Below are positions 6,091 through 27,286 of a stretch of DNA of 64,000 nucleotides, piece after piece. The notes below the pieces were generated by a model. That model was not told the DNA's origin. It did not search any database and saw nothing but the letters and a program-made list of their open reading frames with translations. Position 1 is the stretch's first letter; the number at the start of each line of letters is the position of its first letter. Source of the stretch: Sphingopyxis sp. (GTDB taxonomy: Bacteria; Pseudomonadota; Alphaproteobacteria; Sphingomonadales; Sphingomonadaceae); assembly GCA_030148985.1 (NCBI GenBank), contig JASBSJ010000043.1, positions 1-64,000 of the forward strand, read 5' to 3'. A program made the translations under genes and the position numbers.

Positions 6091-6140
6091 CCCATCGCAT
6101 TCGCCATCAGACACGAGATCGGTGAAGGGAGCGTCGCGGC

Positions 6141-6973: not shown

Positions 6974-7013
6974 ATTGGCTATTGAATTGATCAATCAAAT
7001 TGGCTACTATTTT
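6974..7013 (+). promoter_or_regulatory. Promoter of the TonB receptor with repeated ATTGGCT element
   Basis: A -35 TTGAAT (6982-6987) and -10 TACTAT (7005-7010) are separated by 17 bp. Two direct ATTGGCT copies sit at 6974-6980 and 6999-7005, 25 bp apart, the second overlapping the -10. The block ATTGGCTACTATTTT (6999-7013) recurs exactly on the minus strand at 23335-23349, in the promoter of the ethanolamine-type operon. Confidence 0.65.
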
Positions 7014-9278: not shown

Positions 9279-10397
9279 ATGACATATCGCCGCTGGGCAT
9301 CGCTTCACAGAACCATCGGGCTCGCGCTGCTGGCACACTGGGCGCTGCTCGCCTTGTCCGGCATGTTGCTGGTCTTCCATCGCGACATCGAGCAACAGAT
9401 GCTCGCCTCGGCACCGGGTTCGGACCGGCGGGCCTCGCTGACCGCCGTGACGCAAAGCGTCGCCGCCGCCCGCCCCCAGGCTGAAATACTCCAGATCTCG
9501 ACATTGAATGGCGGCACCGACTTGCTGCGCATCCGCGTAAAGCCGACGAGCGGCGGCGAGGTGCGCAGCCTCGTTTTCGACACGCATGCCGGCACGATCA
9601 TCGGCGACAGCCAACTTTCGGGAAGCATGCGTGCCGACGGCATCCTCCAATTCGTCTACCGGTTGCACCAGACGCTTCTGCTCGGCGACGGCGGCAAGAC
9701 GCTCGTTGCTTTCAGCGGCCTGTTCCTCGTCTTCACCTCATTCGCCGGCTATCGCCTGCTCTGGCCGCAACGCCGCAACTGGCGGCGTATCATCCGGCCA
9801 AAGCTCGTCGGAAACGCGCGCTCGCGGATGACCCTCGTCCATCGCGCGATTGGCGTCCTCGTCGGCCCGGTTCTGATCATCCTCGCCATCACCGGCGCAG
9901 GAATGAACTGGACGCCCGCGATCAAATCCGCCCTTGTCGGTGCCGGACTTGCCGAGGCGGCGGCGGCGGCAGCGGATAGCGAGCAGGCCCCGCGGCTTGG
10001 CCCCGATGGCGCCCTTGACGCAGCAAGGCGACGTTTTCCGGATGCCGAGTTCACCTCGGTCACCCTGCCGGCCAAGGGATCGGCAATCTATGCGGTTCGA
10101 CTGCGCCAGCCGCGCGAGGCACATGCGATCTTCGGCATGACCAACGTCTTGGTCGACGGCGTGACGGGCGAGATCCTTTCCGTAACCGACCCGCGCCAGT
10201 CGAAGGCCGGCGACAAGGTGCTGGAATGGCTGTTTGCCATCCACAATGGCGAATTTCTGGGCCTGGCCGGCCGCCTTGTCGTGTTACTAACCGGCGGCGC
10301 CTTGTTCCTGCTGTGCCTGCTGGGCGGAGCGTCGTGGTGGCGCAGGCCGCGACCGCGGCGCGACCCGGGCGGGGCGCGTACCTTGCCCGGAGACTGA
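9279..10397 (+). CDS. PepSY-associated transmembrane protein
   Basis: A 372-residue inner-membrane protein of the PepSY_TM family. It has an N-terminal helix after YRRWASLHRTIGLALLAHWALL, periplasmic PepSY-like segments, VHRAIGVLVGPVLIILAITGAGMNW in the middle, and a C-terminal LFAIHNGEFLGLAGRLVVLLTGGALFLLCLLGG helix. The conserved histidines near membrane faces (LHRT, LVHRA, IHNGE) are typical of the family. Such proteins usually sit beside TonB receptors and some are proposed ferric-siderophore reductases. It follows the receptor by 87 bp and precedes the RraA-like gene by 3 bp. Confidence 0.85.
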   Translation: MTYRRWASLHRTIGLALLAHWALLALSGMLLVFHRDIEQQMLASAPGSDRRASLTAVTQSVAAARPQAEILQISTLNGGTDLLRIRVKPTSGGEVRSLVFDTHAGTIIGDSQLSGSMRADGILQFVYRLHQTLLLGDGGKTLVAFSGLFLVFTSFAGYRLLWPQRRNWRRIIRPKLVGNARSRMTLVHRAIGVLVGPVLIILAITGAGMNWTPAIKSALVGAGLAEAAAAAADSEQAPRLGPDGALDAARRRFPDAEFTSVTLPAKGSAIYAVRLRQPREAHAIFGMTNVLVDGVTGEILSVTDPRQSKAGDKVLEWLFAIHNGEFLGLAGRLVVLLTGGALFLLCLLGGASWWRRPRPRRDPGGARTLPGD

Positions 10398-10400: not shown

Positions 10401-11069
10401 ATGTTCACTATCGGAGAAAATGCCCCACCGCTTCCCGCCGACCTGCTCGGCAAGATGACGCGGACCGAGACCGCCACCATCGGCCACTTCCGCCATCACG
10501 GCTTTGTCGACCCGGCGGTTGCATCGGTGCTGGGCGACGTGCGGATCGCCGGCAGCGCAGTGACGGTGCGGATACCCGGCGCCGATTCGACCCTGCTGCA
10601 TCACGCCCTGACGCTGTGCGGACCCGCCGACGTGCTGGTCATCGATCGCTGCGGCGACACCCGCCATGCGTGCTGGGGCGGCGTGGTGACGGCTGCGGCG
10701 GGGCTGACGGGTATCGCGGGCGCGATCATCGACGGGCCCGCCACCGATATCGGCGAGGTGATGGCGGCCGGCTTTCCGCTATGGTGTCGTGGCCGATCGT
10801 CGCTGACGACAAAATTCCTCGAACTCGACAGCGCCGTGAACGTACCGGTGCAGATCGGCGGCGTCGCAGTCGCCCCAGGCGATGGCGTTTTTGCCGATTA
10901 TAGCGGCGTGGTCGTCGTCCCGCGCGCCGAGATCGAGCAGGTCTGCGACACCGCGCTCGCGATGCAGGACAATGAACTGCGAGTACTCGAACGCCTTCGG
11001 AACGGCGAGCGGTTAGCCGACATCAGCGGCGCGGCGGAACGAATTGCGCGGGCGCTGGCCAGCCAATAG
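10401..11069 (+). CDS. RraA-like protein (HMG/CHA aldolase family) with altered signature
   Basis: A 222-residue protein of the RraA/4-hydroxy-4-methyl-2-oxoglutarate aldolase fold: DVRIAGSAVTVRIPGADSTLLHHAL, HACWGGVVTAAAGLTGIAGAIIDGPATDIGEV and VQIGGVAVAPGDGVFADYSGVVVVP. Members act either as pyruvate-type class II aldolases or as RNase E inhibitors. The usual DGxxRD motif reads DGPATD here: the metal-binding Asp is kept but the substrate-binding Arg is absent, so aldolase activity is doubtful. GGAG lies before its start. It is the last gene of the plus-strand cluster, converging on the porin 12 bp downstream. Confidence 0.8.
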   Translation: MFTIGENAPPLPADLLGKMTRTETATIGHFRHHGFVDPAVASVLGDVRIAGSAVTVRIPGADSTLLHHALTLCGPADVLVIDRCGDTRHACWGGVVTAAAGLTGIAGAIIDGPATDIGEVMAAGFPLWCRGRSSLTTKFLELDSAVNVPVQIGGVAVAPGDGVFADYSGVVVVPRAEIEQVCDTALAMQDNELRVLERLRNGERLADISGAAERIARALASQ

Positions 11070-11081: not shown

Positions 11082-12320
11082 TCAAAGTTCGAACGAAAAC
11101 TCTGCGCGCAGACCAAGCACCAGTGCGTCGGCGATGCGGGGATCGGCGGACGGATTGCGGACATAGTGCACGCTCGGCTGTAACACGAACCGGTCGGTAA
11201 TGGGGGCCCGATAGGTCGCCTCGATCGCAACCTCCGACGGCCCCGCGCCGGTCGCGGCACGATGGCTGTCCGAGGTAAAAGCAGCCGCAAGCGCGATACC
11301 GAACTCGTCTTCGTCGCGTCCTGGCACCCAACCGCTGAATTTCAGCCCGCCGCTGGCGAAGGCGTCGAACATGTTGAAACGCCCCGCAGCCTTGCCGAGC
11401 CGGAAAAAGGCATCGATCTTGCGTCCGGCGCTGGCCGACAGCGGAAACTCGCCGCGAACATAGGTCCCGGCATTGCCCTTTCCGGTCCCGGTGCCGTCGT
11501 TGCGGTCGAAGCGGGCGGTATATTGCCAGCGCCCGAGTAGCAGCTTGCCACCGCCGAGCGGCGCTTCAAGTTCGCTGACGAGCAGCGCACCGTCACCATG
11601 GCCGAGTTTGACCGCCGTGCGCCCGGGACGATCGGGATCGCCCGGAACACCGTCGAGTACCGCGGCACGGACTGCCCATCCTTCGATGGGCACCCATTGC
11701 ACGCGCGCGGCAAGCGAGGCCTGGGGAAAGATCGACGGCCCGTTCTCGCCGCTCTGTGCAAAGTCGGTTCCAATGCCGTGCGGGCTGCTGACGAATAGCC
11801 CCGCAGCGTCGAGCGCGTCGAATTCGGAATTGAGGTCGTAGAGGCCAGCCTTCACCGACAGCCGGTCGCCGATCTTCTGGTCGATCCAGGCTTCGTAGAG
11901 GCGGACCGCCTGCGTCCCCGCCTCGATATTGCTCACCGCCTGGGTGTCGCCGGCAAGGTCGCTAATCGATTTGCCGTTGTTGTAGAGGCCGTAGACGTGG
12001 ACCTGCGCGCCGGTCCAGCCGACAAGTTTGTCCATGTCCGCCTCGAACACGATATCGAGATTGTCGAGATAGCGCGTCCCGCGCCGGACCTCGCCGGATA
12101 CATTGCCCATAACCTCGCCGGTATAGGTTAGTTGCAGCAATATGGGGCCGTGCGTTTCGTCGATTTCGGCGGGGGCATGGGTGTGGCTGTGTGGAAGATG
12201 GCCGTGGTGCGTCGGATGCGGCGCCGCATCCAAGCCGGACGTCGCAGATGCGGCAAGCGCGAAGGCGGACGCCAGCATCAGAAGCTGACCATGAAGGCGA
12301 GCCGGATGCGGTCGAGCCAC
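11082..12320 (-). CDS. OprB-type carbohydrate-selective porin
   Basis: A 412-residue outer-membrane protein with a signal peptide (MLASAFALAASATSGLDA) and a histidine-rich mature N-terminus (HPTHHGHLPHSHTHAP). The OprB-like barrel contains LTYTGEVMGNVSGEVRRG, VHVYGLYNNGKSISDLAGD, AWIDQKIGDRLSVKAGLYD and the family ending, LRAEFSFEL. OprB porins pass sugars and other small solutes. The His-rich stretch suggests metal binding or is simply a linker. It is the last gene of the long minus-strand operon; its start overlaps the end of the preceding porin gene. Confidence 0.85.
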   Translation of the reverse strand: MARPHPARLHGQLLMLASAFALAASATSGLDAAPHPTHHGHLPHSHTHAPAEIDETHGPILLQLTYTGEVMGNVSGEVRRGTRYLDNLDIVFEADMDKLVGWTGAQVHVYGLYNNGKSISDLAGDTQAVSNIEAGTQAVRLYEAWIDQKIGDRLSVKAGLYDLNSEFDALDAAGLFVSSPHGIGTDFAQSGENGPSIFPQASLAARVQWVPIEGWAVRAAVLDGVPGDPDRPGRTAVKLGHGDGALLVSELEAPLGGGKLLLGRWQYTARFDRNDGTGTGKGNAGTYVRGEFPLSASAGRKIDAFFRLGKAAGRFNMFDAFASGGLKFSGWVPGRDEDEFGIALAAAFTSDSHRAATGAGPSEVAIEATYRAPITDRFVLQPSVHYVRNPSADPRIADALVLGLRAEFSFEL

Positions 12321-13567
12321 TGGTCTGGCGACAGGCCGCCGGCATAGGCCGGGTCGAGTGGGCGGTAATGATACCAGAGCAGATCGAGCTGCAGATGCTC
12401 GGCCGGCACATAGCCGATGCCGAAGCCGTGCAACTGGTAATTGGTCGACAGGTCGATATTGTCGTGGCTGAACGCCGCGAGCACTGAGTCCACCTCGACC
12501 TCCGAATAATTATAGGCGACGCGCCAGTCGCCGGGCCTGGCGGCGCGGCCGGCGGCGAATTCGAGGTTGAAAGCGGTGTCGCCCGCAACCGCCGCGCCTG
12601 TGTTGTGGACATAGTCGGCGGTGAAGCTGAGCGGCCAGCGCGGCGACAGGCCGGCCCAGTTCAGCGTGCCGATGCCCTCGATCAGGCGGAAATCCGAAAC
12701 ATAGCGTCCGCCCGAGATCAGATTGCCGCGAAAGTCGCCGGCGTCGGCACCCGCGACCGAACCGAGGCGATAATGATAATAGCTGCCGGTGAGCCCCCCC
12801 CTGATGTCGGAAGCGAGCGGTGCCGAGACGGCGAGCTGGCCGCCGATCATGTCGCTGTCGCGTGCGATCGACGCTTCGTCGATGACAAACCACAGGCCGC
12901 GCGCGTCAGCGCGCGCCTTGCCGATGTTCGCGCCATAGGCCACCGCGACGCCCTGCGGCGACACATCGCCGTCCCACAGCATGTCGGTGCGCTGGAATTG
13001 CTGCGGGAATTTGCCGGCATAGGCGGTCAAGCCGCCGTTGGTGTAGCGGACCCAAGCCTGATCGAGCGACACCCGAAAATCGTCGACAAAATTGCCGAGC
13101 GTGACGTCGGTCGAATTGGGATCGTCGGGGTCGCCGGTCGCAATCTGGGTGCCGACCGCGAAATGATCGTCGATCTTGTAGGTCGAGCGCAGGCGGGCGC
13201 GGACGGAAGAACGCGAACGCTCGCGGCCCTCGATGACATTCCATTCCTGCCGCACGCGCATGTCGCCGCCGATGTCGAGGCCGGGGATGCGGAAGCTGGC
13301 GTCGGTTGGAGCGGCTAAATTCGTCGCCGTCGGAGAGGTTTGCGGCAGCGCGGGCACGGACATTTGCAATTGCGGTTCAGCCGGCGTTGCGGTCAGGCGC
13401 TCGATCTGTTCCGATTGCTCGGCGAGCAGGGCGTGCAACCGTTCGATCTGTGCCTGCTGAGCGGCGAGCTTTGCTTCGATCGCTGCGAGCCCGATGTCTT
13501 GCGCGGCCGCGGGCAGCGCACAGGTGGCTGTGAGGAGAAAGGTAAGAACGCGGAATTGGCAAGGCAT
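12278..13567 (-). CDS. Putative porin with N-terminal coiled coil
   Basis: A 429-residue outer-membrane protein. The start at 13567 (GGAAGGACC upstream) gives a signal peptide ending CALPAAAQ. A heptad-like segment (LAAIEAKLAAQQAQIERLHALLAEQSEQIERL) suggests trimerisation outside the barrel. The barrel then has FRIPGLDIGGDMRVRQEW, RSSVRARLRSTYKIDDHFAVGTQIATGD and WVRYTNGGLTAYAGKFPQQF, and ends LAFMVSF. This fits the 'putative porin' (Porin_5-like) family. It lies about 100 bp after eutC and overlaps the OprB-type gene, so two different porins end the operon. Confidence 0.82.
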   Translation of the reverse strand: MPCQFRVLTFLLTATCALPAAAQDIGLAAIEAKLAAQQAQIERLHALLAEQSEQIERLTATPAEPQLQMSVPALPQTSPTATNLAAPTDASFRIPGLDIGGDMRVRQEWNVIEGRERSRSSVRARLRSTYKIDDHFAVGTQIATGDPDDPNSTDVTLGNFVDDFRVSLDQAWVRYTNGGLTAYAGKFPQQFQRTDMLWDGDVSPQGVAVAYGANIGKARADARGLWFVIDEASIARDSDMIGGQLAVSAPLASDIRGGLTGSYYHYRLGSVAGADAGDFRGNLISGGRYVSDFRLIEGIGTLNWAGLSPRWPLSFTADYVHNTGAAVAGDTAFNLEFAAGRAARPGDWRVAYNYSEVEVDSVLAAFSHDNIDLSTNYQLHGFGIGYVPAEHLQLDLLWYHYRPLDPAYAGGLSPDQWLDRIRLAFMVSF

Positions 13568-13665
13568 ATTAGGTCCTTCCAGGTGGAGGGTGCGCGGAAG
13601 CGCCCGCGTCCTCTGCTCGGACGACACGGCGAACAGGTCGAAACGATATGGACGGGGCTTGCGGA

Positions 13666-14439
13666 CTAGGGAGGACGCTCGATAGCGGCGGAAGCCGCGA
13701 GCAAGGAGAGCCGGTCCTCCTTGAGGTCAATGCCGCTGAGGCGGCGCGATCGCGCTTCGCGCATCAGCCAGGCAAGCTGATCCGCAGCGGTCGCGATCGG
13801 CAGCCCCCCGGGCCGGATGTTGGAAATACAATTGCGTTCGCTGTCGCGGCGGCCTGGTTCGGGCGCCCAGGTCAGATAAGCGCCCAAGCTGTCTGCAGCA
13901 CTCAATCCGGGGCGTTCGCCGAGCAGGACAACGACGAGCGACGCGCCAAGCGCGGCCCCGATCTCGTCGCCAATCGCGACCCGCCCCTGCTGGACCAGGA
14001 CGACGGGCGCGACCCGCCAGCCGCCGAGGAGAGCGCAAACGGCGGCGACCAACGCCACAGCCTGGCGATTGACGGCCATCGCCGACAATCCGTCGGCAAC
14101 AACGAACGCCGCATCATAATCTCCTGGGCGGAGTGCCACGAGACCCGCGGGGTCGACGCGGCGGCCGAGATCGGGACGACGAAGATATTCCCCACGGTCG
14201 GCCGCTTGCGATCGCATCCTGACAATTTCATGTCCAGACAGGGCGGCAGCGATCGCGTCGGCGTCGAGCTCGGTATATACAGCATCTCGCGCACGCGCGT
14301 GCGCGAGCTGGAAATCCAGCAGCGGCGCTGTGGGAAGAGCGTCGCCTGCCCGCCCCAAGGCGATCCGCGCGGCGGTGGCTGCCCGCAGCGCATCGTACTT
14401 CACCGGGCTGTCGTCGATCACGGAACGCCCCCATCCCAT
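13666..14439 (-). CDS. eutC: Ethanolamine ammonia-lyase small subunit
   Basis: A 257-residue EutC. Conserved blocks include DFQLAHARARDAVY, the central VVADGLSA, VVLVQQGRVAIGDEIG, GERPGLSAADSLGAYLTW, and the C-terminal RNCISNIRPGGLPIATAADQLAWLMREA with RRLSGIDLK. With EutB it forms the adenosylcobalamin-dependent enzyme converting ethanolamine to acetaldehyde and ammonia. The start overlaps eutB by 22 nt. A GTG six codons inside is an alternative start. No N-terminal encapsulation extension is evident, in keeping with the absence of microcompartment genes. Confidence 0.93.
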   Translation of the reverse strand: MGWGRSVIDDSPVKYDALRAATAARIALGRAGDALPTAPLLDFQLAHARARDAVYTELDADAIAAALSGHEIVRMRSQAADRGEYLRRPDLGRRVDPAGLVALRPGDYDAAFVVADGLSAMAVNRQAVALVAAVCALLGGWRVAPVVLVQQGRVAIGDEIGAALGASLVVVLLGERPGLSAADSLGAYLTWAPEPGRRDSERNCISNIRPGGLPIATAADQLAWLMREARSRRLSGIDLKEDRLSLLAASAAIERPP

Positions 14440-15809
14440 CCGAGCATCATGCCGCCACGGTCGAAACCGATCGGTCGTATCCCGCCCTGACCGTCGGAAA
14501 GCTCGACGGCCTCAAGCCACGCCTCGAACTCCGGCGCGGGCCGAAGGTCAAGCGCACGCCGGACATAAAGGGCGTCGTGGAAACTGGTGCTCTGATAATT
14601 GAGCATGATGTCGTCGGCGCCGGGGACACCAATGACAAAGTTCACCCCTGCAACGCCGAGCAGCGTGAGCAAGCTGTCCATGTCGTCCTGGTCGGCCTCG
14701 GCATGGTTGGTGTAACAAACGTCGACGCCCATCGGGAGGCCAAGCAGCTTGCCGCAAAAATGATCCTCAAGACCCGCGCGGATGATCTGTTTGCTGTCAT
14801 AGAGATATTCGGGACCGATGAAACCGACGACGCTGTTGACCAGCAGCGGGGAGAATTCGCGCGCGACGGCATAGGCACGGCATTCGAGCGTCTGCTGGTC
14901 GACGCCGTGATGGGCGTCGGCCGACAATGCCGATCCCTGCCCCGTCTCGAAATACATGACGTTATCGCCAACAGTACCGCGCTGCAGCGACCGCGTCGCT
15001 TCGTGCGCCTCGCGCAGCAGCGTGAGATCGACGCCAAATCCGCGGTTCGCCGCCTCGGTCCCTGCGACCGACTGGAAGGTCAGGTCCACCGGAGCGCCCC
15101 TCTCGATCGCAAGGATCGTGCTGGTAACATGCGACAGGACGCAGCTTTGTGTCGGAATCGCGAAACGCTGGCGCAGCTCGTCGATCAACGTCAGCAGCGT
15201 GACAATGTTGTCGATGCTGTCGGTGGCGGGGTTGATCCCTATCACCGCATCGCCGCACCCCATCAGCAAGCCGTCGAGGATGGCTGCAGCGACGCCGGTG
15301 GGGTCGTCGGTCGGATGGTTCGGCTGCAAGCGGACGGCCATGCGGCCCGGTAGGCCAAGCGTGGTTCGAAACGCCGTCACGACACGACATTTGCGCGCAG
15401 CGGCGATCAAATCCTGGTTGCGCATGATCTTGGAAACCGCGGCGGCCATTTCGGGAGTCAGGCCGGGCGCCACCGCCGCGAGCGCGGCGGGTGTCGCCTT
15501 TCCCAATATCCATTCGCGCAAACCGCCGATGGTCAGATGCGCCACGGGCGCAAAGGCTGCCCGGTCGTGGCGATCGAGGATTAACCGCGTGACCTCGTCC
15601 TCCTCATAAGGAACGACGGACTCCTGCAGAAATGTCGCCAGCGGCAGGTCGGCGAGGACGAAGCGTGCTGCCATCCGTTCGACGTCGCTGGCGGCGGCAA
15701 TTCCGGCCAGCGCGTCCCCCGACCGCCTCGGCGTTGCGGCCGCAAGCAAGTGCGCAAGATCCCGAAAGGAATAGCGTGTGCCTGAAAGGTCGGTGCGATA
15801 AGATGGCAT
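14418..15809 (-). CDS. eutB: Ethanolamine ammonia-lyase large subunit
   Basis: A 463-residue EutB of normal length. Characteristic regions are LLMGCGDAVIGINPATDSIDN, TQSCVLSHVTSTILAIERGAP, VDLTFQSVAGTEAANRGFGVD, ETGQGSALSADAHHGVDQQTLECRAYA and LGLPMGVDVCYTNHAEADQDDMD, which make up the TIM-barrel active site binding ethanolamine and cobalamin. It is followed by eutC in the usual order. The preceding hydrolase gene ends 14 nt upstream, so the pair is part of the long operon. Adenosylcobalamin must be supplied from elsewhere: no EutA reactivase or EutT adenosyltransferase is nearby. Confidence 0.95.
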   Translation of the reverse strand: MPSYRTDLSGTRYSFRDLAHLLAAATPRRSGDALAGIAAASDVERMAARFVLADLPLATFLQESVVPYEEDEVTRLILDRHDRAAFAPVAHLTIGGLREWILGKATPAALAAVAPGLTPEMAAAVSKIMRNQDLIAAARKCRVVTAFRTTLGLPGRMAVRLQPNHPTDDPTGVAAAILDGLLMGCGDAVIGINPATDSIDNIVTLLTLIDELRQRFAIPTQSCVLSHVTSTILAIERGAPVDLTFQSVAGTEAANRGFGVDLTLLREAHEATRSLQRGTVGDNVMYFETGQGSALSADAHHGVDQQTLECRAYAVAREFSPLLVNSVVGFIGPEYLYDSKQIIRAGLEDHFCGKLLGLPMGVDVCYTNHAEADQDDMDSLLTLLGVAGVNFVIGVPGADDIMLNYQSTSFHDALYVRRALDLRPAPEFEAWLEAVELSDGQGGIRPIGFDRGGMMLGWDGGVP

Positions 15810-15823
15810 CGCAGCAGCTCCGG

Positions 15824-16708
15824 TTACTCAGCTCGCAGTCCTTTGAGGAATCGGCCGAGTATATCGAAATAGGCCCCAGGCTCTTCATAAAAGGGCATGT
15901 GCGAGCTATGATCGAAAATGTGGATCTGTGAATTGGGCAGCGCGGCGTGCATCTTGTGCGAACAGGACGGGGTCAGCTCGTCATATTTGCCGCACAGAAC
16001 GAGGCAGGGCACCTCGATCGCCGACATCGCCGGCACGCGGTTCCAGTCACGCATATTGCCCGTATAGGTGAATTCGTTCGGACCCTGCATGGTTTCATAC
16101 GGACCCATGTTCCAGTCGGCGAGCGCTTCGGTCAGGCTTTCGGGCCATTCGGCGAGGCGGCAGACGTGGCGATAATTCAGCAGCGTGATCGCTGCCTGAT
16201 ACTCGGGATGGTCGATCGTCCCCGCGGCCTCGCGGGCAATCATCATGTTGACGGTCTCGCTACCGAGTGCCCCGCGCAGACGGCCCAGTTCAGCGACAAG
16301 ATGCGGAATGTCGCAGGCCCCATCGGCAATGATATAGCTTGCGATACGCTCAGGGTACGTCAGGCAATATTCCGTCCCCATCCAGCTCCCCCAGCTGTGC
16401 CCAAGGAAGTGGATGCGCTCCGCCCCGACGAACGCGCGCACCTGGTCGGCTTCGGCGACGTAGCGCCCAAGCGTCCACAGCGCCGGATCCTCGGGTCGAT
16501 CGGATGCTCCGCATCCGAGCTGGTCCCACGCCACCACGCGCAAACGTCCGTTCGCGAGACGCTCGTGCGGCGCGCGCAGATAGAGGCTCGGCAAGCCCGG
16601 CCCGCCATTGGCGAGCAGGATGGTTTCGGGACCATCGCCGTAGATATAGACAGCGACTTCATAGCCTTCGGCGAGCCTCAGGCGACGCGTTTCCATCGCG
16701 ACGGTCAC
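15824..16708 (-). CDS. Proline-iminopeptidase-like alpha/beta hydrolase (amidase)
   Basis: A 294-residue alpha/beta hydrolase of the prolyl iminopeptidase/L-amino-acid amidase group. It has an oxyanion motif LLANGGPGLPS, a nucleophile elbow HFLGHSWGSWMG (Ser), an Asp region CGKYDELTPS and His at DHSSHMPFYEEP. Such enzymes cleave N-terminal amino acids or small amides. Position between an amidase and eutBC suggests it releases an ethanolamine-like moiety from an amide precursor; this is inference. The GTG start overlaps the nitrilase stop (GTGA). Confidence 0.85.
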   Translation of the reverse strand: MTVAMETRRLRLAEGYEVAVYIYGDGPETILLANGGPGLPSLYLRAPHERLANGRLRVVAWDQLGCGASDRPEDPALWTLGRYVAEADQVRAFVGAERIHFLGHSWGSWMGTEYCLTYPERIASYIIADGACDIPHLVAELGRLRGALGSETVNMMIAREAAGTIDHPEYQAAITLLNYRHVCRLAEWPESLTEALADWNMGPYETMQGPNEFTYTGNMRDWNRVPAMSAIEVPCLVLCGKYDELTPSCSHKMHAALPNSQIHIFDHSSHMPFYEEPGAYFDILGRFLKGLRAE

Positions 16709-17559
16709 AGAATCAACTCCTCAAGCGGGGTGCGGTCAAACGTCATCGAGGGTATCGACGCGCGGAAGGCGGGAACCTCTTGCAAGTCGAGATCGGCGAC
16801 GATCACCCCGGGTTCACCTCCCGCATCGGCCAGCACTCGGCCCCAGGGATCGATGATCAGCGAATGGCCGTGCGACCGTCGGCCAGGAAAGTTGTCGCCG
16901 CACTGCGCGGGCGCGATGACATAGCAACCCGTTTCAATCGCGCGCGCGCGTAGCAGCGGTTCCCAGTGCAGCGGCCCGGTATAGCTGCTGAACGCCGCCG
17001 GGATCGCGATGATCGAGGCTCCCGCCTGCGCGAAACCGCGATAAAGATAGGGAAAGCGCATATCATAGCAGATGCTCATTCCCATGAGACCCCAAGGCGT
17101 ATGCGCGACAACGCGCTGCCTGCCCGCTCGATAGAAATCGGACTCGCGGATCGAATCTCCATCGGGCAGGTCGACGTCGAAGAGATGAACCTTGTCGTAA
17201 TAGGCCCGAATGTTGCCCGCAGGATCGACCAGCAGCGAGCGGTTGACCGGCGCACCGTCCTCGGCGCGCATCGAGATCGACCCCAGCAGAATCCAGATCT
17301 CCAGCTCGGCAGCCAGCGTTCGCATGTGGCGGAGCGCCAGATGGTCGGATGCCGGTTTCGCATAGGCGTGAATCTTCGCCGCCGTCGGGGCAAGATAGTC
17401 GAACGCCTCGGGCAAGGCGACGAGCTCGGCGCCTTCCGCCGACGCCGAGCGGACCAGTGCCTCGGTCGCCGTTAGCGTGGCGCCCGGGTCGGTCGTCGCG
17501 CAATTTTGGACGCAGGCGACGCGAAGCCTGTCCGACATGGGTTCAGCCCGCCGCATCAT
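16705..17559 (-). CDS. Carbon-nitrogen hydrolase (nitrilase superfamily)
   Basis: A 284-residue nitrilase-superfamily amidase with the Glu-Lys-Cys triad visible: Glu in LVALPEAFDYL, Lys in YYDKVHLFDVDL and Cys in MSICYDMRFPYLYR, followed by IIAIPAAFSSYTG. The YDKVHLFDVDLP and RFP features resemble the omega-amidase/Nit-type branch that hydrolyses small amides to acid plus ammonia. The start could be 17559 (coupled to the ATPase stop) or the ATG at 17538. It is translationally linked on both sides within the operon. Confidence 0.88.
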   Translation of the reverse strand: MMRRAEPMSDRLRVACVQNCATTDPGATLTATEALVRSASAEGAELVALPEAFDYLAPTAAKIHAYAKPASDHLALRHMRTLAAELEIWILLGSISMRAEDGAPVNRSLLVDPAGNIRAYYDKVHLFDVDLPDGDSIRESDFYRAGRQRVVAHTPWGLMGMSICYDMRFPYLYRGFAQAGASIIAIPAAFSSYTGPLHWEPLLRARAIETGCYVIAPAQCGDNFPGRRSHGHSLIIDPWGRVLADAGGEPGVIVADLDLQEVPAFRASIPSMTFDRTPLEELIL

Positions 17560-18635
17560 GGCAGCACCACAACCGCATGCGCCCGATCGAACGTCGCGAA
17601 TACCTCGGGCCGGTCGAACGCATCCTCCGTCTCGGCCGCGATCGAGGTGCCGCCGGCATCGAGTGCATATTGGTAGCGCGCACCCAGATAGCTGCGGCCG
17701 GTGATACGTCCGGGCAGCAGGTTGAAGTCGTCGTTCGCCGGCCGCGCGACGGCCAGCCGGACATGTTCGGGGCGCACAGCGACCAGCACGTCGCTACCCG
17801 GCTTCACATCGGGTGCCCAGATGGCGCTGATCATCGTTCCGCCTTCAAGGGCGACTTCCGCCGTGCCGTCGGCATCGCGGCGCGCCATCTTGCCTTTCAT
17901 GAAATTGGAAGACCCGATGAAGTCGGCGACGAACGCCCCCGCCGGCCGCGTATAGATTTCCTGCGGGGTCGCGAGCTGGACCATCTCGCCCTTGTTCATT
18001 ACGGCGATGCGGTCGCTCATTGCGAGCGCCTCGATCTGGTCGTGCGTCACATAGATGGTCGTGATTTTCAGGCGCTGCTGAAGTTCCTTGAGCCAGTTGC
18101 GCGCGCGAATCCGGAGCTTAGCGTCGAGGTTCGATAGCGGCTCGTCGAGCAGGAGGAGCGTAGGTTCGAACACAAGCGTGCGCGCCAGCGCCACGCGCTG
18201 CTGCTGGCCGCCCGACAGTTCGTGGGGATAGCGTTTCGCATAAGGGGCCATCTCGACCAGGTCGAGGGCCTCGGCGATGCGCCGCGCGCGGTCGGCGCCG
18301 CCGACCTTGCGAATCTTCAGCGGAAAGGCGAGATTCTGCTCGACCGTCATGTGCGGCCACAGCGCATAGGATTGGAACACCAGCCCGCAGTTGCGCTTCT
18401 CCGGCGGCACGAGGATGCCCTTCGTGCTGTCAAAGAAGACATTATTACCTGCGCGGATGATACCGCCCGTCGGCGTGTCGAGCCCGGCGATCGCAAAAAG
18501 CGTCGTCGACTTGCCGCAACCGCTCGGCCCCAGGAGGGTCAGGAACTCGCCGTCGGCGACGGTCAGGTTGATGCCGTCGATCGCGCGCACATCGCCGAAA
18601 TGTTTCGACAGATTTTCAAGAACTAGCTCAGACAT
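17556..18635 (-). CDS. ABC transporter ATP-binding protein (FbpC/PotA type)
   Basis: A 359-residue ATPase. Walker A is GPSGCGKST, the Q-loop is FQSYALWPHM, the signature is LSGGQQQRVALART, Walker B is LLLLDEPLSNLD, and the H-loop is YVTHDQIEA. A C-terminal TOBE-type domain (about 240-359) places it with iron(III), polyamine, thiamine and phosphonate importers. It powers uptake with the fused permease encoded immediately upstream. The start at 18635 overlaps the permease stop by 8 bp. Confidence 0.92.
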   Translation of the reverse strand: MSELVLENLSKHFGDVRAIDGINLTVADGEFLTLLGPSGCGKSTTLFAIAGLDTPTGGIIRAGNNVFFDSTKGILVPPEKRNCGLVFQSYALWPHMTVEQNLAFPLKIRKVGGADRARRIAEALDLVEMAPYAKRYPHELSGGQQQRVALARTLVFEPTLLLLDEPLSNLDAKLRIRARNWLKELQQRLKITTIYVTHDQIEALAMSDRIAVMNKGEMVQLATPQEIYTRPAGAFVADFIGSSNFMKGKMARRDADGTAEVALEGGTMISAIWAPDVKPGSDVLVAVRPEHVRLAVARPANDDFNLLPGRITGRSYLGARYQYALDAGGTSIAAETEDAFDRPEVFATFDRAHAVVVLP

Positions 18636-20352
18636 TTTGATGACTCCGCAGAAGTTGGCGCGCGGCAAAGACGAAAATGACGGTCAAGGCGATCTGGATG
18701 ACCGAGAGGGCGGCAACGGGCCCCGTGTCGCCGTTCGCCCAGAAGGAGAGCATCGTCGTGCCGATGATCTCGTTGCCAGGCGAAAAGAGGAATACCGCCG
18801 AACTATATTCCTTGAGGAACGACAGGAAGAGCAGCACATAGGCGCTGAAGATCGCGGGCTTCAGGAGCGGCAGGATGATGGTGCGGCACGCCGTCCACCA
18901 GTCGGCGCCGCACGACCGCGCGCTCTTGTCGAGCTCCTCGCTGATCTGCATCAGGGCGGGCGAAATTGCCCCGAAAGCCGTCGGAATGCTGCGCATCGTG
19001 AAGGCCAGCACCATGATCCAGATCGTACCGTGCATCCAGCCGATGCCCGGAATGATCAGCATCGCCCAGAACAGGCCGATACCAGCGACGATACCTGGAA
19101 TCGCCCGCGGATAGAGGGCGATGAACTCCAGCTGGCGGCGAAACCGAAAGTTGGAGCGATGGACGACGAGCGTGATCAGCGCGATGAAAACCGTCGCGAT
19201 GGCGCCCCCCACGGTCGAGATGATCAGACTGTTGGTGATCGAACGGACATAGGCGTCATAGGAGAAGATCAGGTTGAAATTTTCCCACGTCAGCAAATCG
19301 AAAGGAGCCATCAACGGTGTCAGGAAGGTCGTCACGGAGCGCAGTGCGATGCCCGCCAGCGGGATTGCCAGAATGACGACGTTGTAGAGTAGGAAAAGAA
19401 GAAATACCGGCCAGCGCGCGGCGCCGAGATCGGCGAGCTTTTGCCGCTGCGCTTTGCCTTTCAACGTGACAAACCGCCCCGCCTTGGTGAGCAGCATGCC
19501 CTGGCAGATTAGCAGGACCGTGATGATGACGAGCAGGATCGCCGCCGCCGCGCCCAATATGCCATAGTCCGGTTCAATCCCGCCAAGACCATGGCTGTAC
19601 AAATAGGTGGTGAAGAATTCGATCCCGACCGGACGACCGAAAACCAGCGGCACCGACAGCATTTCGAGCGAGCCGATGAACGTCAGGAGAGCGCTGTAGA
19701 TGATCGCCGGTCGCATCAGCGGGATCGAGATTGACCACAGCACGCGTAGCGAACCTGCGCCCATCGTGCGCCCGGCGTCTTCCAGTGTCGCGTCCACTCG
19801 CTGCGCCGAACTCGCGCAGAAAAGATAGACGAGCGGCGCCATGCCCGTGCCGCCGACCGCGGCCATCCCCCAGATGGTGTAGAGGTTCCAGGGCGCGTCG
19901 CCAAATAGCTGCTGCGTGAGCAGCGTGACATATCCCGATGGGCCGTACATGACGAACCAGGAGAAGGCGATGACGAGCTGAGACACATACATTGGCCAGA
20001 GCACGATCGATCGCAATGTCTTGCGAAAAGGCAGGTTCGTTCGTTCAAGAAAGATCGCAAATGCCACCCCGAGTATGCAAGCGATGAGCGTGGTCGCAAG
20101 CGCAAGCAGGATCGAGTTCGAAATCACGCTGTAAAAGACGCTGTCGCCAAATAGCCGGACATAATTGTCGAGCGTCAATATTCCGCCGTCCTCGTAGAGA
20201 GGTCGGCTGACGAACGACTGGTAAAGGATGGGCACAAGCGGAGCCGCGACCAGGATCAATGCACTGCCCCCGATCAAGGCCTGGATCGCGAGCGCCCTGT
20301 TCAGGCCACCGTCGCCGTGTCGGGCGCGTGCCGTGATAGGAATGGATGCCAT
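18628..20352 (-). CDS. ABC transporter permease, fused FbpB-type double domain
   Basis: A 574-residue inner-membrane permease with about 12 hydrophobic helices and two binding-protein-dependent transport domains in tandem (EAA-like loops around DATLEDAGRTMGAGSLRVLWSISIP and SEELDKSARSCGADWWTACRTIILP). This is the FbpB/PhnU-ThiP style fusion. The start at 20352 is chosen for AGGAGAG upstream rather than the longer frame to 20403. It acts with the binding protein and ATPase on either side. Substrate by context: an ethanolamine derivative or related amine; by family: iron(III) or a phosphonate is also possible. Confidence 0.9.
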   Translation of the reverse strand: MASIPITARARHGDGGLNRALAIQALIGGSALILVAAPLVPILYQSFVSRPLYEDGGILTLDNYVRLFGDSVFYSVISNSILLALATTLIACILGVAFAIFLERTNLPFRKTLRSIVLWPMYVSQLVIAFSWFVMYGPSGYVTLLTQQLFGDAPWNLYTIWGMAAVGGTGMAPLVYLFCASSAQRVDATLEDAGRTMGAGSLRVLWSISIPLMRPAIIYSALLTFIGSLEMLSVPLVFGRPVGIEFFTTYLYSHGLGGIEPDYGILGAAAAILLVIITVLLICQGMLLTKAGRFVTLKGKAQRQKLADLGAARWPVFLLFLLYNVVILAIPLAGIALRSVTTFLTPLMAPFDLLTWENFNLIFSYDAYVRSITNSLIISTVGGAIATVFIALITLVVHRSNFRFRRQLEFIALYPRAIPGIVAGIGLFWAMLIIPGIGWMHGTIWIMVLAFTMRSIPTAFGAISPALMQISEELDKSARSCGADWWTACRTIILPLLKPAIFSAYVLLFLSFLKEYSSAVFLFSPGNEIIGTTMLSFWANGDTGPVAALSVIQIALTVIFVFAARQLLRSHQNV

Positions 20353-20372
20353 CGCCGCTTGCTCTCCTGCGC

Positions 20373-21554
20373 TCACTTCTTCGCCTTGAAGGTGTCGGCC
20401 CAACGCTTGTTGAACGCTTCATAATCGGTAAGCAGGCGCGGGTCGTATCCGATCCGAACCATATTTTGCTCGCCGCCGACCGCGGTCGATATCTTGCTGT
20501 AGGTTTCGTGCGGAACCTCGCTGTCGGCGACGTCGGGGCGATAGGGCGTCATCCCGCCCTTGCCCGCATTCACCTGACCCTCGTGCGACAATATATAATC
20601 GAGCAGAAGCTTGGCAGCGTTCTTATTCTTGGCACCGGAGGTCACGGCCATGCCGCGCATCATCATTGGCACGCCGTCTTTCGGCAACGCCCAGCCGAGA
20701 ATCTTGTCGCGGCCCGGATCCTTCATTCGTGGAAAGACGGTGATGCCGGACGTATAGAAGGAGGCGAGATATTCACCCGACATAACCTTATCGAGCATCG
20801 TCGAGCCGCCAGTCTCGGGACGCGTGTAAGGCCCGAGCTTCTCGAAGGTGCGCCATCCGCCCATCTTGCCATGATCGATCGCTGCCCAATGAATGGCATA
20901 GGCGAAGGAATGGCTCGTCGAGTCATAGGTCGTCAGTTTGTTGCGGAAGCGCGCCGGATCGGCCTCGGCGGTCGCCGCCAGCTTCGCCAGACTGTCGGGA
21001 TATTCGGTGGGCTTTAGCAGCGCCTTGTTATAGATGATGATCATCGGGTCGATTGCCACCGTGTAGACGCCGGGGAACGGACGGGTCCATTCGGGCACTT
21101 TGTCTGTTTCGGGGCTGGCATATTTTTCCGGTCCGTCATTCTTCACGAAGCGCTGCCAGGCGTCGGGTGCCGCAACCACCAGCATGTCGGCTGACCGCTT
21201 GCCCGACTTCACCTCGGAATAATAACGTTCGAACGATTCCGTCGGGCCAAGATCGAGCGCATGGACCTTGATCCACGGATATTTGCGCTTGAAGCCGTCA
21301 AGGATTGCGCGCCAGTTATATTCGGCAACGTTCGAATAGACGAGCAACTCCTTTTCGGATCGCGCGGCGTCGATCAGATTCGCATATTCGGCGGGATAAT
21401 AGTCAGGATAGAGCGGGCCTGCCGGCGTGTCATCGGCGCCTGCCGCCTGACGCTCTTCGTTGCCCCCGCCGCCACAGGCGGAAAGCGCCAGCGCCGCCGC
21501 CAACAGGCTCACCATCGCCTGGCGCCGTGAACTGACGCCGAAAATGCTACCCAT
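20373..21554 (-). CDS. ABC transporter substrate-binding lipoprotein
   Basis: A 393-residue family-1-like extracellular binding protein. The N-terminus MGSIFGVSSRRQAMVSLLAAALALSACGG carries a lipobox (LSAC) after a twin-arginine-like SRRQAM. Mature regions include KELLVYSNVAEYNWRAILDGFKRKYPWIKV and RYYSEVKSGKRSADMLVVAAPDAW, as in FbpA/AfuA and 2-aminoethylphosphonate-type binding proteins. The conserved paired tyrosines of ferric-binding FbpA are not evident, so an organic ligand is plausible. It is first of the three ABC genes and overlaps the aldolase end by 8 bp. Confidence 0.88.
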   Translation of the reverse strand: MGSIFGVSSRRQAMVSLLAAALALSACGGGGNEERQAAGADDTPAGPLYPDYYPAEYANLIDAARSEKELLVYSNVAEYNWRAILDGFKRKYPWIKVHALDLGPTESFERYYSEVKSGKRSADMLVVAAPDAWQRFVKNDGPEKYASPETDKVPEWTRPFPGVYTVAIDPMIIIYNKALLKPTEYPDSLAKLAATAEADPARFRNKLTTYDSTSHSFAYAIHWAAIDHGKMGGWRTFEKLGPYTRPETGGSTMLDKVMSGEYLASFYTSGITVFPRMKDPGRDKILGWALPKDGVPMMMRGMAVTSGAKNKNAAKLLLDYILSHEGQVNAGKGGMTPYRPDVADSEVPHETYSKISTAVGGEQNMVRIGYDPRLLTDYEAFNKRWADTFKAKK

Positions 21555-22329
21555 GTTCTGCCTCCCTGTAAGATTCCCGAACGAATGAGAGCGCCCCCGC
21601 TCTCAGAAAGCCGACGTCACTGGCGGCCGTGACGAACCGATAGCCGCGAGCGAACAGCTGGGCTGCGTCATGTCCCGGCATCGCCGCCCCGCCAAGCGCC
21701 GCTCCGCTCTCGATTATCCGCCGTTCGGCAGCGCCCAGGATCTCGACAAAGGCCCGATCGGCATAGTCGCCCATCCGGCCGATGCTGGCCGACAGGTCGA
21801 GCGGGCCGACGAAAAACATGTCTATGCGCCCGACCTTCGCCATGTCGGGAATGGCATCGACTCCGGCCGCCGATTCGATCATCGCGATCACCAGCGTTTC
21901 CTCAGCGGCATGCCGCGGGTATCGGTCGGAATCTGCTCCCCAGCCAGCAGCACGCGATACCGTGAAATGCGCGCCGCGGCGCCCGAAGGGCGGATAATAA
22001 GCGGCCGCAACGACCTCCTCGATTTCGGCGACATGTTCGACATTCGCGGCGATCACACCTTCCACGCCCATATCGAGCAACCGCTTGACGGGGGCTGCCC
22101 GGTTTTCGGGGAGCCGAGCGAGGATGGTGGCAGGACCCGCCGCCGCAGCGCGAAGCTGCTCCACTGCCGTTTCGATCCCGCCCGGTGAGTGTTCATGATC
22201 AATCAGCAGCGCATCGAAACCGCAATCGGCCAATATTTCGGTGGCGACCGGACTGCCGCTGAACAGCCAGCAGCCGAGCGACGGTAGCCCCTCCTGCAAA
22301 CGCAGTTTGAGGCGGTTTGGTCTAAGCAT
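21547..22329 (-). CDS. HpcH/HpaI family class II aldolase
   Basis: A 260-residue TIM-barrel aldolase of the HpcH/HpaI family: LGCWLFSGSPVATEILADCGFDALLIDHEHSPGG, the active-site Arg region ILARLPENRAAPVKRLLDMG, metal-ligand VIAMIESAAGVDAIP, and FFVGPLDLSASIG. It catalyses reversible retro-aldol cleavage of 2-keto-3-hydroxy acids to pyruvate plus aldehyde. In this operon it could handle an aldehyde formed downstream, perhaps acetaldehyde, but that is inference. The start at 22329 overlaps the upstream hydrolase stop by 8 bp. Confidence 0.87.
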   Translation of the reverse strand: MLRPNRLKLRLQEGLPSLGCWLFSGSPVATEILADCGFDALLIDHEHSPGGIETAVEQLRAAAAGPATILARLPENRAAPVKRLLDMGVEGVIAANVEHVAEIEEVVAAAYYPPFGRRGAHFTVSRAAGWGADSDRYPRHAAEETLVIAMIESAAGVDAIPDMAKVGRIDMFFVGPLDLSASIGRMGDYADRAFVEILGAAERRIIESGAALGGAAMPGHDAAQLFARGYRFVTAASDVGFLRAGALSFVRESYREAEHG

Positions 22330-23200
22330 TGCTGCATTCTTGTGCGGCGACGCCCAGCTTCTCGCAAAAGAAGGCGGATGCCAGGGCAGCGAGCGGTGCG
22401 CAGTCATGTGCGACGCCCGGCAATGTTTCGGTCTTCACATCGAGCCTGTTGGCAACGAGATTTTCAGAAAGCGTCCTCAATCGCTCGACGCGCGTCGCAC
22501 CGCTGTCATTGGCACCGGGCATCCAATGCCGCCGGCCCGGTGCGTGAATGATCTCGCTCGCATCGAGATCGTCCTCACCGACCGCGAGATGAATCGCGAT
22601 CCGCCGCATCGCCTCGATATCGATCGGGGTACCGAAGCGGTCCTCGATATCGGCAATGCCGATCCACCAGTCGCGGTTCGTGTCGAGAAGTGTTGGTGAT
22701 CCCGGCGAGCAGGCGGAAACGGCCGTCAGGCGGCCAGGATGGAGATAAATCATCCGGTGCGCGAGATGCGCGCCGCCCGAGAAGCCAAAAATCGCAAACC
22801 GGTCGGCGCCAGCGCCATATTTGCGGCCGACCTCTTCGACCATCGACAGCAGCAGCGTATCGAACCTTATACCTTCGAACTCGACATATTTATAATTGTC
22901 GCGGTCATCGGGATCGACAATGCCTGACGGGAAAAGCGGCGCAAGGACGATCAGCCCCAAGCGATCGGCGAGGGGCACGAAGAGGTCGCGCACCACATGG
23001 TTTCCGCGACCCGTGCCATGGATCGCCACAAGGATGCGCGCGGTTGAAAGCTGCCCTCGCTCGACGAGGACCGGCGGCACATAAAGGCAGTAGGAAAATC
23101 GCTGGTCGGCCTGACAGGCGATGGCACCCGTCCGCCCCACATCATATGGTGAAAATTCCTGCACCGCACCCTTCTCCGTTCCGACGATCATAATCAGCAT
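22322..23200 (-). CDS. Alpha/beta hydrolase, first gene of the ethanolamine-type operon
   Basis: A 292-residue predicted cytoplasmic alpha/beta hydrolase: oxyanion region VAIHGTGRGNHVVRDLFVPLAD, nucleophile elbow FAIFGFSGGAHLAHRM (Ser in GFSGG) and a C-terminal His near GVAHDCAPL. The fold resembles poly(3-hydroxybutyrate) depolymerase/dienelactone-hydrolase-like esterases. It heads the operon. The ATG at 23200 is chosen; another in-frame start at 23224 is possible. The shared ATTGGCT promoter lies about 130 nt upstream. Role: probably the first hydrolytic step on an ester or amide substrate (inference). Confidence 0.8.
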   Translation of the reverse strand: MLIMIVGTEKGAVQEFSPYDVGRTGAIACQADQRFSYCLYVPPVLVERGQLSTARILVAIHGTGRGNHVVRDLFVPLADRLGLIVLAPLFPSGIVDPDDRDNYKYVEFEGIRFDTLLLSMVEEVGRKYGAGADRFAIFGFSGGAHLAHRMIYLHPGRLTAVSACSPGSPTLLDTNRDWWIGIADIEDRFGTPIDIEAMRRIAIHLAVGEDDLDASEIIHAPGRRHWMPGANDSGATRVERLRTLSENLVANRLDVKTETLPGVAHDCAPLAALASAFFCEKLGVAAQECSNA

Positions 23201-23334
23201 CTCGATCCACTTGCGCCGCGCCATGCCGCCAGATCGGCCATTATATGGGAGTTTCGTCTGCCTTGTGGCGGCACCAAAGCCCTCATTGCCGACATGGAAA
23301 CAGCCTCGCCGCGCGACGCCTCATTCATGACGCC

Positions 23335-23373
23335 AAAATAGTAGCCAATTTTATCACCCTAAGTAAAGCCAAT
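23335..23373 (-). promoter_or_regulatory. Promoter of the eleven-gene operon with ATTGGCT repeats
   Basis: On the minus strand, ATTGGCT at 23373-23367 and ATTGGCTACTATTTT at 23349-23335 are spaced 24 bp apart. The -10 is TACTAT (23343-23338) with a weak -35 TTACTT 17 bp upstream. The 15-bp block is identical to the one in the TonB-receptor promoter. The divergent GntR/FCD gene makes that protein the obvious candidate binder. Confidence 0.65.
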
Positions 23374-23497
23374 TTATGGAACGATTTTTAATTATTATAT
23401 TTCAATTGCTTATTCTTCCACTTGGGCACTGAGGAAGCATTTTCCGCTTGCTGAACGAAGGGTGCACCGGCTACAGGGTCGGCGAGAGGAGCCAATC

Positions 23498-24151
23498 TTG
23501 GCGAAAGTGATGCAGATGTCCGATTCGGATCACGACGAACTGAGTCTGGTTGCCCGGATCGAAGCCGATTTGATTGGCGGCAATTTCCGACCCGGTGAAT
23601 GGCTAAAGCAGGCGGATGTCGAGGAGCTTTACGACTCCAATCGTTTCGATGTGCGCATGGCCTTGCTCGACCTCAAGGCGCGGCGACTGATCGAACATAT
23701 TCCCAACCGCGGCTTTCGGGTCATCAACCTCAGCGAGCGTGAACGTGAAGATCTTTTCGAAACACGCGTGATTCTGGAAACCGCAGCGGCGCGGCTCGCC
23801 GCCTCGCGCATTTCGGAAGAGACAATCGCTGAACTCGACGCGATCCTGCTCGCATTTCGCGACTGCATGGAAACCGCCGACCAGGATCATCTGCGCGCGC
23901 TGAACGGCCAGTTCCACGATCTGCTTTACCAATCGAGCGGTAATGCGGTGTTGGCCGAGGAAATCAAGGCGCTGCGCCAGCGCGGCCTGCCCGGCACGCG
24001 CGGAGGCCTCCGCTGGCGCACCATGGCAGGCATCCAGCACAGCCACGATGAGCATGTTAAAATGATCGAGCTGTTGCGCGCCCGCGACGGCGAAGCACTG
24101 GCGGCGACGATCGACGAGCATCTGAACGGCTGGCGCCGCTACCTGCCCTGA
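23498..24151 (+). CDS. GntR family transcriptional regulator (FadR/FCD subfamily)
   Basis: A regulator of about 217 residues with an N-terminal winged helix (about residues 15-75: RIEADLIGGNFRPGEWLKQADVEELYDSN and RLIEHIPNRGFRVINLSE) and an all-helical FCD effector domain (ETRVILETAAARLAA, ALNGQFHDLLYQSSGN, SHDEHVKMIELLRARD with the usual His residues for metal or acid binding). The start TTG at 23498 has GAGAGGAG at the right spacing; ATGs at 23510/23516 are alternatives. It is divergent from the ethanolamine-type operon and probably represses it. Confidence 0.85.
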   Translation: MAKVMQMSDSDHDELSLVARIEADLIGGNFRPGEWLKQADVEELYDSNRFDVRMALLDLKARRLIEHIPNRGFRVINLSEREREDLFETRVILETAAARLAASRISEETIAELDAILLAFRDCMETADQDHLRALNGQFHDLLYQSSGNAVLAEEIKALRQRGLPGTRGGLRWRTMAGIQHSHDEHVKMIELLRARDGEALAATIDEHLNGWRRYLP

Positions 24152-27227: not shown

Positions 27228-27286
27228 GGCTCTCCCGCCTTTTAAGCTGGGCAAGCAGCGCGCTGGAGTCAAGGCCGCGCGGCAGG

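Follow-up and report, generated by a model that had tools for sequence, protein, structure and literature searches.

The window analysed here, a 64,000-nucleotide stretch of Sphingopyxis sp. (contig JASBSJ010000043.1), contains the ethanolamine ammonia-lyase genes eutB and eutC in an operon with an ATP-binding cassette (ABC) importer and three hydrolase genes, and one and the same 17-base element stands before this operon and before a gene for a TonB-dependent receptor (tonB in the following). The first-pass annotation had proposed import and hydrolysis of an ethanolamine conjugate, followed by deamination. The locus is better read as one regulon through which an ethanolamine-containing chelator is imported, reduced, hydrolysed and used. 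More specifically, it is tentatively attributed to the uptake and use of a foreign carboxylate chelator of this kind, most likely a siderophore of the vibrioferrin or achromobactin type, and probably stands under the adjacent GntR regulator; we hold this to be close to an even call. The assignment builds on gene families, co-conservation and the shared element, from which we infer the ligand, the binding of the regulator and all catalytic steps.

All eleven genes that had been described as tightly coupled are present at 11082-23224 on the - strand; adjacent reading frames, as listed, overlap by 4-86 bases or are separated by gaps of 14 or 38 bases. Profile searches assigned ten of them to the families of OprB and Porin_5 porins, EutC, EutB, proline-iminopeptidase-like and carbon-nitrogen hydrolases, ABC ATPase, permease and binding protein, and HpcH/HpaI aldolases. 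The limits drawn around these genes proved too narrow, as the element also precedes tonB, and genes for PepSY, RraA-like, GntR/FCD, DUF779, ExaC and GAF/Fis proteins flank the set. The GntR/FCD gene is divergent from the operon and is followed by the DUF779, ExaC and GAF/Fis genes, the last of which probably controls the dehydrogenase gene. The features are given below; the "four block genomes" are the further genomes introduced in the next section, to which the own genome is added where five are counted.

6997-7013, + strand: regulatory element AAATTGGCTACTATTTT before tonB; second ATTGGCT at 6974-6980
7056..9191, + strand: TonB-dependent receptor, plug and barrel domains; likely start ATG 7056, preceded by AGGAGG (frame listed from 6975); partners of 38-47% in four block genomes
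9279..10397, + strand: PepSY_TM membrane protein, proposed chelate-metal reductase; PF03929 148.8 bits; partners of 27-40% in four block genomes
10401..11069, + strand: RraA-like protein (aldolase / oxaloacetate decarboxylase family); PF03737; 62% partner within the G470 block
11082..12320, - strand: OprB porin; PF04966; partner only in G046, 47%
12278..13627, - strand: Porin_5 porin; PF16930; 47% partner close to the G046 block
13666..14439, - strand: EutC, ethanolamine ammonia-lyase small subunit; NF003971 306 bits vs cut-off 230
14418..15809, - strand: EutB, ethanolamine ammonia-lyase large subunit; NF011649 709.8 bits vs cut-off 554; PDB 2qez 5.8e-150
15824..16708, - strand: proline-iminopeptidase-family hydrolase (pip); TIGR01250 241.4 bits vs cut-off 167.65; PDB 1mt3; 67-86% in four block genomes
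16705..17559, - strand: Nit-type carbon-nitrogen hydrolase (nit); NF043013 1.5e-57, under cut-off; PDB 1ems, 2w1v; E, K and C motifs
17556..18668, - strand: ABC importer ATPase; PF00005 and TOBE_2
18628..20403, - strand: ABC importer permease; PF00528, two BPD_transp_1 stretches
20373..21554, - strand: solute-binding protein, MctA-like fold; PDB 7f6 series 1.4e-32; Foldseek
21547..22407, - strand: HpcH/HpaI-family aldolase; PF03328; nearest PDB 2vws, 1dxe
22322..23224, - strand: alpha/beta hydrolase (abh), start uncertain; NF050058 4.4e-08, under cut-off; GFSGG; 48-62% in four block genomes
23335-23351, - strand: regulatory element AAATTGGCTACTATTTT before the operon; second ATTGGCT at 23367-23373
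23462..24151, + strand: GntR/FCD regulator; PF07729, PF00392; partners of 46-75% in four block genomes
24158..24538, - strand: DUF779 protein; PF05610 140.4 bits
24600..26180, - strand: ExaC-type acetaldehyde dehydrogenase; NF050026 947.4 bits vs cut-off 900; 89% partner adjoining the G253 block
26271..27272, - strand: GAF/Fis regulator; PF01590, PF02954; 75% partner in G253

The shared element and the conserved gene set

The window holds just two exact copies of the element AAATTGGCTACTATTTT, 16 kb apart. Allowing up to three mismatches still gave these two matches and none in 100 shuffles, which average the whole GC-rich window and hence understate chance matches in AT-rich spacers. A second ATTGGCT begins 24-25 bases upstream of each copy, and a related 15-base pattern with one mismatch located only these two places in the own genome. 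Since both units carry the element, tonB is assigned to the same control unit as the operon; the PepSY and RraA-like genes behind it probably belong there as well, and the adjacent GntR protein is the likely binder. An Rfam scan of positions 1-30000 returned tRNA only.

Comparative searches identified the block in five genomes: the own one (a 2.94 Mb draft, 73% complete, with a single EutB), two of the same family (G046 and G253), one of another family of the class (G470) and one of a third family (G1078). The own genome, G046, G253 and G470 have in common the TonB receptor, PepSY protein, ABC importer, three hydrolases, aldolase, GntR and EutBC, together with the element core. Identities to the window proteins are as follows.

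G046: tonB 40, abh 62, hpcH 67, binding protein 65, permease 78, ATPase 83, PepSY 40, nit 68, pip 86, eutB 79, eutC 65, GntR 75%
G253: tonB 38, abh 61, hpcH 59, binding protein 48, permease 60, ATPase 60, PepSY 31, nit 62, pip 75, eutB 74, eutC 59, GntR 55, ExaC 89, GAF/Fis regulator 75%
G470: tonB 39, abh 59, hpcH 59, binding protein 46, permease 64, ATPase 63, PepSY 27, nit 62, pip 72, eutB 75, eutC 56, GntR 56, RraA 62%
G1078: tonB 47, abh 48, hpcH 30, binding protein 50, permease 62, ATPase 62, PepSY 27, nit 51, pip 67, GntR 46%

The porins, both of which had been counted as members of the set, are its least conserved part: partners of OprB and Porin_5 were found only in and near the G046 block. 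In each of the four other block genomes, tonB has the core ATTGGCTAC at its 5' edge. G046 and G470 also carry the core upstream of nit, and G470 has it ahead of gntR as well; in G253 it lies between nit and gntR, and in G1078 both between pip and gntR and ahead of the binding-protein gene. As a control, 1.59 Mb of sequence around the 80 best eutB loci from named genomes (named eutB loci below) gave two matches to ATTGGCTAC, and 226 kb around twelve same-family eutB loci lacking the block gave none. Genome-wide, the pattern with one mismatch exceeded its backward control in the own genome (2 vs 0), G046 (3 vs 1) and G253 (4 vs 0).

Of 298 genomes of the family, 15 encode EutB, the own one among them, and three of these 15 (own, G046, G253) have the block; the 8.4-20 kb stretches from the other twelve do not, showing at most an aldehyde dehydrogenase, a PepSY protein, or a weak GntR or ATPase match. 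None of the 80 named eutB loci has it. At 60% identity or more, abh was found in the same three out of 397 family genomes, with three more genomes at 35-41% whose loci lie outside the comparison, and at class level in two of 385 (own and G470). Eleven class genomes have a weaker abh; 12 loci of nine of them were inspected and none holds the block, a count to which G442, G571 and some second copies do not belong. Relatives of abh at loci L136-L147 form a distinct group of 41-49% identity, several with pairs of other ABC ATPases close by and some with GntR genes in the vicinity. The binding protein occurs in four of 396 genomes of the order, namely own, G1078 (related block), G085 and G1275, the loci of the last two lying outside the comparison, and in 12 of 398 genomes of the phylum; the three of these inspected (G921, G820, G823) have the importer but neither TonB nor eutBC.

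Receptor, importer and hydrolases

RhtA and TonB-siderophor are the two NCBIfam models that score best with every one of the five receptors, and haem receptors rank third; the window receptor reached 181.8 bits in TIGR01783 (cut-off 223.5) and 129.5 in the RhtA model (cut-off 1100). PepSY proteins can reduce ferric siderophores. One is encoded in every one of the five block genomes, and that of G470 is, in the part read, fused to NAD-binding and 2Fe-2S domains (L208 18148-19497, L135 148-2100). With its gene beside that of the TonB receptor, the window PepSY_TM protein resembles siderophore reductases such as FoxB, a likeness of family and gene placement. Receptor and PepSY protein together suggest that a metal chelate is taken up and not a simple N-acylethanolamine, and plain N-acylethanolamine use was rejected as first choice because both genes belong to the conserved set.

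The structure model of the solute-binding protein (mean pLDDT 80.8) gave 13 best Foldseek matches that were all MctA, with TM-scores of 0.86-0.88 to the target, and FbpA-type proteins behind. MctA (PDB 7f6 series), a metal-citrate importer component, is nearest both by sequence and by fold, albeit at 27% identity and with three ligand-site positions that differ. Ferric-ion import via an FbpA-like protein was therefore rejected, MctA being nearer in fold, as was citrate as a proven ligand, because of those three positions. In the first-pass annotation, iron binding by this protein was to count against the pathway; it would not, as the nearest fold binds metal-citrate. A system for 2-aminoethylphosphonate or a related phosphonate is suggested by the leading NCBIfam models, PhnT2, PhnU2, PhnS and phnR_burk. 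Every match is far under its cut-off, however (355 vs 457.7, 160.4 vs 593.25, 28.9 vs 395.3 and 89.3 vs 271.5, respectively), the binding protein is nearer to MctA in sequence and fold, and no phosphonate enzyme was found among the scanned block genes. We rejected phosphonate use on account of the scores and regard it as hardly probable at all.

The hydrolases suggest what the chelator may be. According to PMC5577590, vibrioferrin consists of one 2-oxoglutarate, alanine, ethanolamine and citrate each, and two amide bonds and one ester bond hold these units together. The nit protein is nearest to deaminated glutathione amidase and to Nit1/Nit2 structures, although at 194.8 bits it missed the omega-amidase / deaminated glutathione amidase equivalog cut-off of 500. 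Enzymes of this kind cleave 2-oxoglutaryl amides. The catalytic Glu, Lys and Cys are present as E51, K123 and C164, in the motif contexts of the Nit family. The pip protein is over the cut-off for its family, and its nearest structures are N-terminal aminopeptidases. No Pfam family matched the abh product over cut-off; it was classed as an alpha/beta hydrolase because of the GFSGG motif and a weak match of the polyhydroxyalkanoate-depolymerase type, and appears esterase-like, so that we propose an esterase. Three hydrolase types thus face the three bonds of vibrioferrin, and on this correspondence a vibrioferrin-like ligand is proposed. As no NIS synthetase (IucA/IucC) was found in the five block genomes, the chelator would be foreign.

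In the mechanism we envisage, the TonB receptor would import the metal complex, the PepSY protein would reduce the metal and set the ligand free, and the MctA-like ABC importer would carry the polycarboxylate ligand into the cell. There, the Nit-type amidase would take off the 2-oxoglutaryl group, pip would remove alanine as an Ala-ethanolamide aminopeptidase, and abh would cleave the citryl-ethanolamine ester. EutBC would convert ethanolamine into acetaldehyde and ammonia, ExaC would oxidise acetaldehyde to acetate, and the acid part may be a substrate of HpcH and RraA. Achromobactin, which consists of ethanolamine, citrate, diaminobutyrate and two 2-oxoglutarates, is a second candidate; the vibrioferrin-type siderophore leads, as an unproven assignment.

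As in the vibrioferrin and achromobactin systems, the building blocks fit the hydrolases, and the window receptor is 28% identical to that of an achromobactin-type cluster of Thalassospira marina (see below). Unlike those systems, the block genomes lack NIS synthetases and carry breakdown instead of synthesis enzymes; unlike the T. marina cluster, the window importer is not of the FecBCD type. A Vibrio campbellii receptor was dropped as vibrioferrin yardstick, as its record contains no NIS synthetase. In its widest form the proposal is a dedicated catabolic system for citrate/ethanolamine siderophores of the vibrioferrin or achromobactin type, in which the ferric complex is taken up and the freed ligand dismantled bond by bond, citrate, 2-oxoglutarate, alanine and ethanolamine are eaten, and EutBC or a gamma-glutamylethanolamide route serve interchangeably as last steps. 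This form is possible, and somewhat doubtful. Judged by titles and abstract beginnings, searches of the open literature brought up no paper that treats the breakdown of vibrioferrin or a cluster of TonB and eutBC genes, subscription journals being mostly outside that scope. The environmental fate of carboxylate siderophores is described as little known in PMC12364333. If true, the proposal would name candidate genes for their breakdown, connect B12-dependent use of ethanolamine with iron chelators rather than with phospholipids, and give siderophores a role as food in addition to that of iron source; the five-genome gene set and the regulatory element allow direct testing of the idea.

The ethanolamine end

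Both EutB and EutC score over their NCBIfam cut-offs, and EutB contains the stretches RLQPN, GINP, YFETGQG and CYTNH, presumably active-site motifs. The reported absence of Eut shell genes was borne out: the bacterial microcompartment shell family PF00936 has no match in the five block genomes, the 73% complete own genome included, whereas the positive controls E. coli and Synechococcus match. This search covered the shell family and not EutA, EutT or EutJ by models of their own. A PduO-type adenosyltransferase is present in all five and could stand in for EutT. The CobA type was considered as a marker of the eutBC version, being found in G046, G253 and G470 and not in G1078 or the incomplete own genome; it was discarded as uninformative, since the PduO type is universal among the five.

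In G1078 no eutBC was found within the 35 kb fetched, and no EutB search of the whole genome was made. The G1078 genes for a glutamine synthetase (GS)-like protein, an aldehyde dehydrogenase and an iron-type alcohol dehydrogenase follow one another in this order, with the nit-to-PrpB genes on one side and gntR on the other. In PMC10132767, the Phaeobacter ethanolamine genes run by locus tag MED193_10046, 10051, 10056, which is the gene order of G1078. By analogy, the trio matches the gamma-glutamylethanolamide route, which is described for Phaeobacter and Streptomyces (PMC10132767, PMC6529630), and lends independent support to ethanolamine, not proof. Unlike in those two systems, the G1078 genes lie within a TonB/hydrolase regulon; the window uses EutBC instead.

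Three permeases encoded beside eutB in three named genomes, chosen by size, place and hydropathy, were used as queries. Relatives were found in 39 of the 80 named eutB loci but in none of 10 block loci and nowhere in the window (E 1e-20; the searches covered these three queries, other permease families lying outside them). The lack of such a permease fits ethanolamine that is made inside the cell. An ExaC-type dehydrogenase of at least 66% identity lies near 11 of the 80 named loci. The first-pass pathway is therefore upheld in part: hydrolases and EutBC are co-conserved in four genomes, G1078 shows the gene order of an ethanolamine route, and relatives of the eutB-side permeases are missing. 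What it overlooked are the TonB and PepSY genes, which indicate a metal chelate.

These data also bear on whether the locus is just a short eut operon of the ordinary kind, its neighbours being unrelated. Shell-less operons joining eutBC with eat are on record (PMC6529630), block-less loci are the rule in the family and among the named eutB loci, and the window resembles such operons in having eutBC without shell genes and an ExaC-type dehydrogenase nearby. It differs from them in that one element covers a TonB receptor, a PepSY protein, an ABC importer and three hydrolases, and in lacking relatives of the eutB-side permeases. Given co-conservation despite reordering in four genomes of two families, we consider an ordinary operon very improbable. 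Siderophore piracy for iron alone, with hydrolases that free iron and feeding as a by-product, would account for the TonB receptor, the PepSY protein and an importer of an iron-type superfamily. EutBC and the GS-like, aldehyde dehydrogenase and alcohol dehydrogenase genes of G1078 indicate carbon and nitrogen use instead, and the regulator adjoining the block is of the GntR/FCD and not the iron type (no Fur-site search was made); piracy of this kind is improbable.

Poorly fitting parts and outside relatives

A number of observations weigh against the proposal or limit the support for it. All five receptors are under every cut-off (TIGR01783 117-182 bits vs 223.5), and at the MctA site positions S26, D28 and S79 the window protein has N, A and A, respectively (S164, T199 and Y221 are left out of this count). 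The GntR/FCD regulator suggests substrate induction, not iron shortage (no Fur-box search was made). Neither HpcH nor RraA has a required role for vibrioferrin, and sugar-acid aldolases (PDB 2vws, 1dxe) are closer to the HpcH of the window than SbnG is. The genome-wide element pattern showed no excess over the backward control in G470 (4 vs 4) and G1078 (13 vs 20); in these two, the position of the matches within the block is all that speaks for the element. One exact match outside the block in G470 (L205) has neighbours among which the search of that locus found no block relative, and the same holds, an ATPase excepted, for one in G1078 (L207). The GS-like, aldehyde dehydrogenase and iron-type alcohol dehydrogenase proteins of G1078 are all under NCBIfam cut-offs, and related GS genes adjoin polyamine importers or other transporters. 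Moreover, G1078 carries PrpB (over cut-off), PrpD and MlrC, which suggests a different acid part there, and the ligand may differ. Lastly, the importer occurs with pip, nit and abh, without eutBC and TonB, on Nitratireductor pOM-1 and Roseicitreum pRA01, and with CoA-transferase, CoA-ester lyase, hydroxyacid dehydrogenase and RraA genes on Shinella, Aureimonas and Pararhizobium plasmids. Judged by gene content, such partial sets may serve other conjugates; they fit a family of polycarboxylate ligands and name no ligand.

The regulon could, alternatively, handle a non-siderophore ethanolamine conjugate, e.g. an aminoacyl- or dicarboxylic-acid ethanolamide, with the TonB receptor used for reasons of size or scarcity and not of metal. 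Hydrolases and EutBC within one regulon, a regulator of the substrate type and the occurrence of importer, pip, nit and abh without TonB are in line with this, as is a T. marina plasmid on which a single unit brings together eutBC, a GntR/FCD gene and genes for a TRAP importer, an HpcH-family protein and a hydrolase of the Nit type (45%). The PepSY protein of all five block genomes, fused to reductase domains in G470, the siderophore-type receptor models that rank first in all five, and the metal-citrate type of the binding-protein fold argue for the chelator instead, and a metal-free conjugate is judged unlikely, if a serious contender.

The same T. marina plasmid is a suggestive outsider for the chelator reading. 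About 64 kb from the eutBC unit (loci L174 14965-22758, L225 9838-27911) lies a siderophore cluster that comprises three genes of the IucA/IucC type and encodes a fusion of decarboxylase and aminotransferase, an HpcH protein resembling SbnG (best PDB 4tv5, 4tv6), RraA and a TonB receptor; SbnG is a citrate synthase. Compared with this cluster, the window proteins are 37% (HpcH, ~186 columns), 33% (RraA, ~184) and 28% (receptor, 727 columns) identical, whereas the window HpcH shares only 25% identity with its counterpart in the eutBC unit. The window receptor also has matches in more than 1,600 other plasmid records.

The block may itself sit on or beside a conjugative element. Conjugation-type genes occupy 29733-57314 of the window (a serine recombinase, RepB/ParB, Trb/VirB genes including VirB8, TrbL, TrbE and a TraG type, and a DUF3363 protein), and a tRNA-Thr lies at 60-135. 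On the other side, a haloalkane dehalogenase gene at 2314-3198 (377.3 bits vs NCBIfam cut-off 241) adjoins a LysE-type translocator gene at 1589-2209. Between the dehalogenase and tonB lie an AtuA-like gene (4587-6713) and a Crp-type regulator gene (6141-6815); as these frames overlap as listed, the true AtuA start is probably further in. A single protein with nucleotidyltransferase and HEPN domains is encoded at 60359-61267.

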